Shown here: positions 37,466 through 39,789 of the stretch, piece after piece | How the letters are laid out: every line of letters starts with the position of its first letter | How positions within the stretch are numbered: position 1 is the stretch's first letter | Origin: Buchnera aphidicola (Hyperomyzus lactucae) | GTDB lineage: Bacteria > Pseudomonadota > Gammaproteobacteria > Enterobacterales > Enterobacteriaceae | Direction: 5' to 3' | Assembly: GCF_005081705.1 (NCBI RefSeq) | Contig: NZ_CP034876.1 | Location: forward strand, 573,863 to 637,862 | Length of the DNA: 64,000 nucleotides | Notes under the pieces: generated by a model | Database searches by the model: none | What the model saw: the letters and a program-made list of their open reading frames with translations, nothing else | What the model was told of the DNA's origin: nothing | Position numbers and translations under genes: made by a program

Positions 37466-38439
37466 ATGATTTTTTATTATTCTTGTAAATGGATAGTATT
37501 TTTTATTTTTTTATTTTCAACTCAAACTCGAGCTATTAACAATACAAATAATATTCTTTTCAAAAAAAACAACTCAAAAAATATACATTGTTTTTTTTTA
37601 ATCAATTACATTTAGAACAATATAAAAAAACAAGAGAAAAAAAAAATAGTTTTTTTAAAAAAATCAATGTGTCTAATAAAAAAGAACTCTCAATCCAAAA
37701 TCAACGACATCATTATATGTCAAAAAAAATTACGATAGTAATAGATGCTGGACATGGTGGTAGAGATCCAGGTGCAATTAGTCATACAGGACTTCAAGAA
37801 AAAAAAGTAAATATTCAAATAGCACTAAAACTTAATCAGTTATTAAATAATGATGGTATGTTTAATACAATTCTAACACGTAGTGATGATTCTTATTTTT
37901 CAGTAAAAATGAGAAAAAAATTTCTTAAAAAAAATCACGTAAATTTATTAGTCTCTATTCACGCCGATTCTTTTAACAAACAATATGTATCAGGAGCATC
38001 TATATGGATGATTTCAAAAAGTAGAATGAATCGTGAAATTGATAATTATATAAAAAAAAAAATAACTGTGCGTTTCCCTGAAAGTATTGAAAAAATATTT
38101 AAAGAAAATGAAAACGATGTTTTTTTAAAAAAAACTATTCTAGATCTAGAATTTTACAATTTGCAAAAAACAGTATTGGATATATCTAAATATCTTTTTC
38201 AAGAAATGAAGAAAAATATAAAATTACATAAAATGTCTCCAAATAATGCTAGTTTAGGAATATTAAGTTCAATAAATATACCTTCTATATTAATAGAAAC
38301 TGGTTTTCTCACGAATTTTTCAGAAGAAAAAAAATTAGGAACAGATAGTTATCAAAATAAACTTGCTCATTCTATTTATTTAGCTCTAAAAAATTATTTT
38401 TATAATGTTTCTATCTTAAATAAAAAAAAATATTTTTAA
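37466..38439 (+). pseudogene. amiB: N-acetylmuramoyl-L-alanine amidase, frameshifted at a T9 run, AMIN domain lost
   Basis: Periplasmic amidase that cuts septal peptidoglycan. An ATG at 37466 encodes a signal peptide (MIFYYSCKWIVFFIFLFSTQ, then TRA). The frame leaves at a run of nine T (37591-37599); one extra T joins it to the long frame that reaches 38439, giving 324 residues. The catalytic domain is intact: zinc ligands in IDAGHGGRDPGA, Glu in QEKKVN, His in VSIHADSF, and catalytic Glu in ILIETGFLTN. Between signal and catalytic domain only about 65 low-complexity residues remain, too few for the AMIN domain of E. coli AmiB (445 residues). Without frame correction the enzyme would lack an export signal. 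Confidence 0.85.
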
Positions 38440-38514: not shown

Positions 38515-38733
38515 TTAACTTAATTCTTTTTTAGAAAATTTAAAACGTTTTTTAAATCTTTCAACACGTCCTCCAGTATCAATAATTCTTTGTTTTCCGG
38601 TATAGAATGGATGACATTTTGCACATATATCTAAATTTAGATCATGATTAATGGTAGAAAAAATTGTAATTGTATTTCCACAAGAACAAGTGGCTGTTAT
38701 TTTAGAATAACGAGGATGAATGTTTTTTTTCAT
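38515..38733 (-). CDS. rpmE: 50S ribosomal protein L31 (zinc-binding form)
   Basis: Large-subunit protein at the subunit bridge. The 72 residues begin [20 protein letters not shown]. Cysteines at positions 16, 18, 37 and 40 form the zinc site of the C+ type of L31. The C-terminus RFKKRF is conserved. It is divergent from the ftsN remnant, near which it lies in E. coli. Confidence 0.96.
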
Positions 38734-38821: not shown

Positions 38822-39054
38822 ATGACGTTCAAAAAAATATATGTATTTAAAAAAAAAAAAAAAATAATTTATATATCTTTTTAATATTAACTGTAATGTC
38901 AATTTTTGTTTTTTTTGCCGCTTCCAATATAAATATTAAAAATTTTTCTAAAACAAAAAATAAAATTTTTATTAAAAATAGTAAAAATAATAGTTTATTA
39001 CCTCCCAAACCAAAAGAAAAATGGAAATATATTCAAACGTTAAAAAATTTATAA
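38822..39054 (+). pseudogene. ftsN: Minimal FtsN: anchor plus essential periplasmic helix, frameshifted at an A16 run
   Basis: Not found by plain ORF calling. ATG 38822 reads MTFKKIYVFKKKKK, then leaves frame at 16 A (38849-38864). One extra A gives a 77-residue protein with a Lys-rich cytoplasmic end, a membrane segment (LYIFLILTVMSIFVFFAAS), an Asn/Lys spacer, and LPPKPKEKWKYIQTL just before the stop. This matches residues 75-89 of E. coli FtsN (LPPKPEERWRYIKEL), the essential division-activating helix, with its Trp, Tyr and Leu kept. The long linker and the SPOR domain are absent. Position upstream of hslVU is that of ftsN in E. coli. It may be functional if slippage corrects the frame. 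Confidence 0.82.
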
Positions 39055-39258: not shown

Positions 39259-39789
39259 GTGACTACAATATTAAGCGTAAGATTGAAAAATAAAGTAGTA
39301 ATTGGAGGTGATGGACAAGCAACTTTAGGCAATACAATTATGAAAAGTAACGTCAAAAAAATTAGATCTCTTTATCATGAAAAAGTCATTGCTGGTTTTG
39401 CGGGAGGTACTGCGGATGCATTTACTTTATTTGAAATGTTTGAAAAAAAATTGGCTATGTATCAAGGTCAATTACAACGTGCAGCTATTGAATTAGCAAA
39501 AGATTGGCGTTCTGATAGAATGTTACGGAAACTTGAAGCTTTATTAGCAGTAGCCGATAAAGAAAATTCATTAATCATTACAGGAAATGGAGATGTAATC
39601 CAACCTGAAGATGATTTAATAGCTATAGGATCAGGTGGTACGTATGCTCAATCTTCTGCTAGAGCATTAATGGATAATACTACTTTAGATGCTAATCAAA
39701 TTGTAGAAAAATCATTAAATATTGCTGCAAATATTTGTATATATACAAATCATACTTTTACTATAAAAGAACTATTTTCAGAAAAATAA
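39259..39789 (+). CDS. hslV: ATP-dependent protease subunit HslV
   Basis: Proteolytic subunit of the two-component HslUV protease. It has 176 residues as in E. coli. After Met removal the N-terminal Thr (TTILSVR) is the catalytic nucleophile. [28 protein letters not shown] and [10 protein letters not shown] are conserved. The start is GTG at 39259, preceded by AAGGGGC. hslU follows after 11 bases. The heat-shock promoter known for E. coli hslVU is not obvious in the 200 AT-rich bases upstream. Confidence 0.97.

Follow-up and report, generated by a model that had tools for sequence, protein, structure and literature searches.

On its sequence, the interval directly upstream of hslV in the 64-kb stretch of DNA analysed here (the window) is an FtsN orthologue without a SPOR domain. 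A short gene with the same helix and stop lies directly upstream of hslV in 31 of the 35 hslV-bearing Buchnera genomes (the genus set holds 36 genomes including that of the window, and this count leaves out the 36th, G009). The orthology is assigned because of the place upstream of hslV, the basic tail, the membrane segment and the helix with its Trp, Tyr and Leu residues; the gene is best set apart from canonical FtsN, as a SPOR-less orthologue that probably works like it. In the window, a basic stretch and one membrane segment are followed by the E helix region and the stop, and the frame is broken at a run of 16 adenines (A16). In this genome, production of the protein, here called mini-FtsN, would require a frame correction at the level of expression. 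The parts of the locus are as follows.

38841..39054, plus strand: mini-ftsN, beginning at the ATG that aligns with the start of intact relatives and ending at the conserved stop; the A16 run breaks its frame
38822..38824, plus strand: upstream ATG, the start chosen in the earlier note; absent at the matching place in the intact relatives examined
38849..38864, plus strand: A16 run in the lysine patch
38869..38922, plus strand: membrane segment LYIFLILTVMSIFVFFAA, assigned by sequence, without a topology program
38896..38898, plus strand: ATG inside the membrane segment, the sole usual start codon of the C-terminal frame (52-codon ORF)
38998..39051, plus strand: E helix region LPPKPKEKWKYIQTLKNL, with W at 39022, Y at 39028 and L at 39040
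39052..39054, plus strand: stop, at the place of E. coli Q93; same stop position in 31 of 31 Buchnera genes
39259..39789, plus strand: hslV, the downstream neighbour, used as the anchor

The upstream neighbour on the minus strand (38515..38733) is presumably an rpmE-like gene. The sequence and the A run described in the earlier note are confirmed, and the A16 run is the longest homopolymer in the window, with a T13 run next. The C-terminal frame, open for 67 codons after the lysine run, is out of frame with both upstream ATGs across the A16 run. The frame from ATG 38822 reads MTFKKIYVF plus lysines and then meets an early stop; a net change of +1 (or −2) in the transcript would lead from this ATG into the C-terminal frame and give 77 residues. 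This start, on which the +1 slip proposed in the earlier note depends, is probably not the ancestral one, since the intact relatives begin at the ATG aligned with 38841. The required slip therefore differs, because a net −1 (or +2) is needed to enter the C-terminal frame from the probable ancestral start at 38841. ATG 38822 may be usable in this strain all the same. The internal ATG at 38896 was rejected as a start, as half of the membrane segment would go.

Comparison of the Buchnera genomes showed intact mini-ftsN in 13 genomes (79–84 codons each), which make up the alignment A1, and broken mini-ftsN in 18 of the 31. Each break lies between the start and the membrane segment, that of G022 being a loss of the start region, and the part from the membrane segment to the stop is open in all 31. 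No mini-ftsN gene is present upstream of hslV in G005 or G008; G033 retains a remnant only, and G023 has N letters in the middle of the gene with both ends visible. A profile search with A1 matched 33 of the 36 genus genomes, 31 of them strongly (E 1e-37 to 9e-16), including the window's own match to the profile of the 13 intact relatives (E 2e-22); the weak matches are those of G023, by its visible start, and G008, at another place. The residues equivalent to E. coli W83, Y85 and L89, described as kept in the earlier note, are invariant in 31 of 31. Over the 31 genes, the final 18 residues have a mean pairwise identity of 78%, vs. 27% for the preceding 20 residues (ungapped); at the nucleotide level, the identity is 84% in the final 54 nt and 44% in the 54 nt past the stop. 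The strong profile matches in 31 of 36 genomes, each just upstream of hslV, and these identity contrasts indicate that mini-ftsN is more than a chance frame. The motif and membrane segment, on whose conservation in related genomes the reading of the earlier note had been staked, are conserved there in sequence. The claim that standard ORF calling misses the gene is correct where the frame is broken; however, the 13 intact members are ordinary ORFs, and one of them has four unnamed database homologues.

Of the 13 intact members, 12 and 13 are recovered by the NCBIfam models for FtsN, with a best E of about 2e-6 that lies below the curated cut-offs; the 67-codon frame of the window matches NCBIfam ftsN with an E of 4e-4, far below the cut-off. 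For TIGR02223, with a cut-off of 107.65 bits, the first member reaches 27.6 bits and the window frame 20.1 bits. Searches of mini-FtsN against Pfam gave no convincing family and searches against solved structures gave chance matches only. The SPOR family (PF05036), already thought lost in the earlier note, has no match in any of the seven Buchnera genomes searched, the window's own (G000) included, and the E. coli control was positive. The E. coli FtsN gene resembles the Buchnera gene in its place upstream of hslV, its basic tail, its membrane segment and its essential region, which was delimited to L75–Q93 with W83, Y85 and L89 crucial (PMC6325244). Its long linker and SPOR domain have no counterpart in the Buchnera gene, which ends at the residue matching Q93. 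Four named records from enteric or Sodalis-like bacteria also show the ftsN-hslV order. The basic cytoplasmic tail and single membrane segment were assigned from the sequence. The intact Buchnera tails start with MYxx and show no clear alignment with the RDYV start of the longer FtsNs, in which D5 has a role in the contact with FtsA (PMC7613929).

The earlier note had treated the reduction as a special case; it is genus-wide, recurs in other symbionts and has been reported for Serratia symbiotica (PMC5013485). The A1 profile matches 155 of 198 family genomes. Matches are listed for 20 non-Buchnera genomes no larger than 1.4 Mb: in 13 the open frame spans 89–180 residues and in six it spans 235–284 residues, and the 20th, G206, has a weak match (E 0.005). 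The P...WxY helix is present in 12 of the 13 short frames, and G173 has WKY without that proline pattern. The match of G061 to A1 contains two stops. Short FtsNs are also present in four larger genomes (G160, G051, G082 and G121), and in G121 a SPOR piece adjoins the short FtsN. SPOR is found elsewhere in the genome in five of the 13 small genomes with a short FtsN and nowhere in the other eight. Buchnera, like Wigglesworthia, G081 and G192, has 10 residues from the Trp to the stop; G131 has nine, the other genes measured have 18–95 and four long genes from named records have 183–286. These differing stops suggest several truncations of FtsN, and a shared stop position may be explained by the single change of a Gln codon to a stop. 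The gene upstream of hslV in Wigglesworthia glossinidia brevipalpis (BA000021.3, L056) has the same end residue as that of Buchnera (WHYAKELENL-stop); however, it has a longer tail with KDYV, an open frame and a different stop codon, TGA.

The short FtsNs of Serratia symbiotica SCc and STs are likewise cut to a small N-terminal part (PMC5013485), and E. coli FtsN 1–119 is cited in the same paper as sufficient for division, with filamentous cells. The text of that paper on S. symbiotica does not name a Buchnera FtsN, its Table having Buchnera BCc only, and its section on the short FtsN describes no homopolymer break, unlike the situation in Buchnera. A degraded ftsN has been described in a Pantoea symbiont (PMC5091035). 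No description of a Buchnera FtsN was found in passages of the literature on FtsN of Buchnera, Blochmannia and Wigglesworthia or on endosymbiont SPOR (PMC10591338, PMC5814848, PMC7154730, PMC5091035, PMC5013485). The short FtsN of S. symbiotica was reported in 2016 (PMC5013485). In a 2023 review, ftsN is scored as present in 0% of 53 Buchnera genomes, 38 of them from Aphidinae and 15 from Lachninae, and alternative mechanisms that switch on septal wall synthesis are inferred (PMC10591338). An overlooked mini-FtsN would remove the need for such mechanisms in most of the genomes examined. FtsN has been trimmed close to the residue defined by E. coli genetics, apparently more than once, and this trimming provides natural tests of the roles of SPOR and the tail.

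A fairly probable account of the locus is that Buchnera as a genus has an FtsN orthologue cut to tail, anchor and E helix, which is still expressed in the window's genome through slippage at the A16 run. The Buchnera protein would retain a short basic tail in the cytoplasm, a single membrane anchor and the E helix in the periplasm, with the SPOR domain and the glutamine-rich region lost. The E helix would bind the interface of FtsL, FtsB and FtsI and thereby switch on FtsWI, and septal placement would come from FtsA and the divisome itself rather than from SPOR binding to bare glycan. In the window's genome the lysine codons have become the A16 run, where the frame is broken, and RNA polymerase slippage would alter the A run in a share of the transcripts, so that the gene is probably still expressed.

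A possible but rather unlikely alternative is that the orthologue is real in the genus and has recently become a pseudogene in the window's genome, the A16 run having silenced it and FtsL K88 and other changes having made it dispensable. The high share of broken genes, the absence in G008, the degraded copy in G033 and the missing start region in G022 are in keeping with such decay. The window genome is also a single broken tip beside the intact G027, and a recent loss in its lineage is therefore possible. However, the window retains the E helix and a frame on both sides of its break (G022, with its start region lost, is an exception to this pattern), and the older broken clades remain open downstream. 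On a tree built from hslV and a section of hslU, at least eight changes between intact and broken mini-ftsN are required. A clade of five (G041, G037, G026, G025 and G021) is entirely broken, with one offset in four of the five, and a clade of three (G042, G031 and G040) is entirely broken, with one offset in all three. The neutral probability of finding no downstream stops is 4.3e-6 for the clade of five and 0.003 for the clade of three, in a substitution-only simulation on terminal branches, scaled by 2.4 from one hslV pair, that assumes one old break per clade and would be weakened by separate recent breaks. The pairwise dN/dS values come from the 45 closest of 465 pairs and are noisy, with 32–36 synonymous sites. 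The clade of three gives 0.13, 0.16 and 0.43, and the five listed pairs of the clade of five give 0.25–0.81, but two broken pairs that include G029 reach 1.7 and 2.2; hslV gives 0.01–0.10 in the listed pairs. Selection therefore continues after the break in the two broken clades and appears relaxed in the G029 pairs. Since the two clades that have the break in common keep the downstream frame, continued expression of the broken gene is argued for.

An error of sequencing or assembly as the source of the break, with the true gene in frame, is improbable. Homopolymers of 13–19 nt are error-prone, and many of the breaks lie at such long runs; however, several broken genes have runs of only 7–11 nt (e.g. 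L022, L027, L029 and L033), and the offsets agree within clades. A noncoding regulatory leader of hslVU would fit the position just upstream of hslV and a promoter scan that gave eight sites (9.1 in shuffles), none promoter-like before mini-ftsN on its strand, but is extremely improbable, as the high conservation stops at the stop codon, the peptide has its match in FtsN, and most of the close pairs (among the 45 closest of 465) have substitutions that follow codons.

For an expressed mini-FtsN, transcriptional slippage would most simply provide the route in the broken clades. Slippage can correct the transcripts of an inactivated locus in the Buchnera of R. padi (PMC3164680), and insertion errors in Buchnera climb with run length up to 11 nt (PMC5574713). 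No frame-restoring transcription error was seen in Buchnera in the latter study, which counts against slippage. The genes of Buchnera and Blochmannia that are reported to be corrected by slippage (PMC3164680, PMC3017870) resemble mini-ftsN in having a break at an A run with the rest of the gene kept, at times across species. Unlike these cases, mini-ftsN was previously unannotated, and its A16 run exceeds the range of up to 11 nt over which slippage has been measured in Buchnera (PMC5574713).

The partners that mini-FtsN would act on are widely kept. Of the 36 genomes, 35 have FtsW, FtsI and FtsL matches, the sole exception being G005, which also has no mini-FtsN. However, G008 keeps all three without mini-FtsN, and G033 keeps them (its FtsL C-terminus unreadable) with a mini-FtsN remnant only, which argues against a strict link. 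Of the 35 Buchnera ftsL loci (L162–L196), 33 have a readable WRNLI-x-E stretch, which lies past the break where there is one. Residue 88 is Lys and E87 is retained in all 33 readable Buchnera genes, whereas in other genera residue 88 is Glu in 26, Lys in one (G223) and Ser in one (28 readable genes from 30 loci). In E. coli, E88K lowers the dependence of FtsL on FtsN, and FtsL with E87K is dominant negative (PMC7733951). Buchnera K88 matches the E. coli activation allele, and a weak supply of FtsN may be tolerated because FtsL has this Lys; A+T pressure would favour K88 as well. The link would give a testable account of a divisome living with little FtsN. In the model of the E. coli complex, FtsN W83–L89 contacts FtsL L86/A90, FtsI V86/Y168 and FtsB L53 (PMC10390529). 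An alignment of five Buchnera FtsIs with two free-living FtsIs shows that RY at 167–168 is kept and the C-terminal tail is missing, and Buchnera FtsL ends soon after the activation region. FtsQ is listed as absent in Buchnera (PMC10591338). The activation hub in Buchnera is read here, from these sequences, as pared to its core.

Breaks of this kind also occur in ftsL: among 35 Buchnera genomes, 18 have the gene out of frame at an A run and 16 have it in frame (G033 is unreadable, and the state of G008 was assigned by a looser pattern), and the tree requires at least 11 state changes. The ftsL of the window's genome is broken at an A17 run outside the window (G000:C1:246400-246900, L162). Among 31 genomes, both genes are broken in eight, FtsN only in 10, FtsL only in eight and neither in five, and no link between the two breaks is claimed. 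A doubtful extension of the slippage account would have the septal activation module pared to an early-ending FtsL with K88, a short FtsB, a tail-less FtsI and a SPOR-less FtsN, in which slippage at long A runs would meter both FtsN and FtsL; the frequency of septal switching would then be set by the polymerase slipping and not by a regulator.

Buchnera FtsB is short, ending about 10–25 residues from the place matching E. coli position 56 in 28 of the 30 loci listed (L235–L264). The FtsW match of G012 (G012:C1:229068-230134) is in two pieces with internal stops, and the mini-FtsN of G012 is also out of frame. In the window, an AmiB-like amidase gene (37466–38439; AmiB match, E 7e-64) lies beside mini-ftsN, and its leader-like start MIFYYSCKWIVFFIFLFSTQTRA and catalytic part lie in different frames near a T9 run (37591–37599). 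With the amidase, three septal-wall genes of this genome have a homopolymer break.
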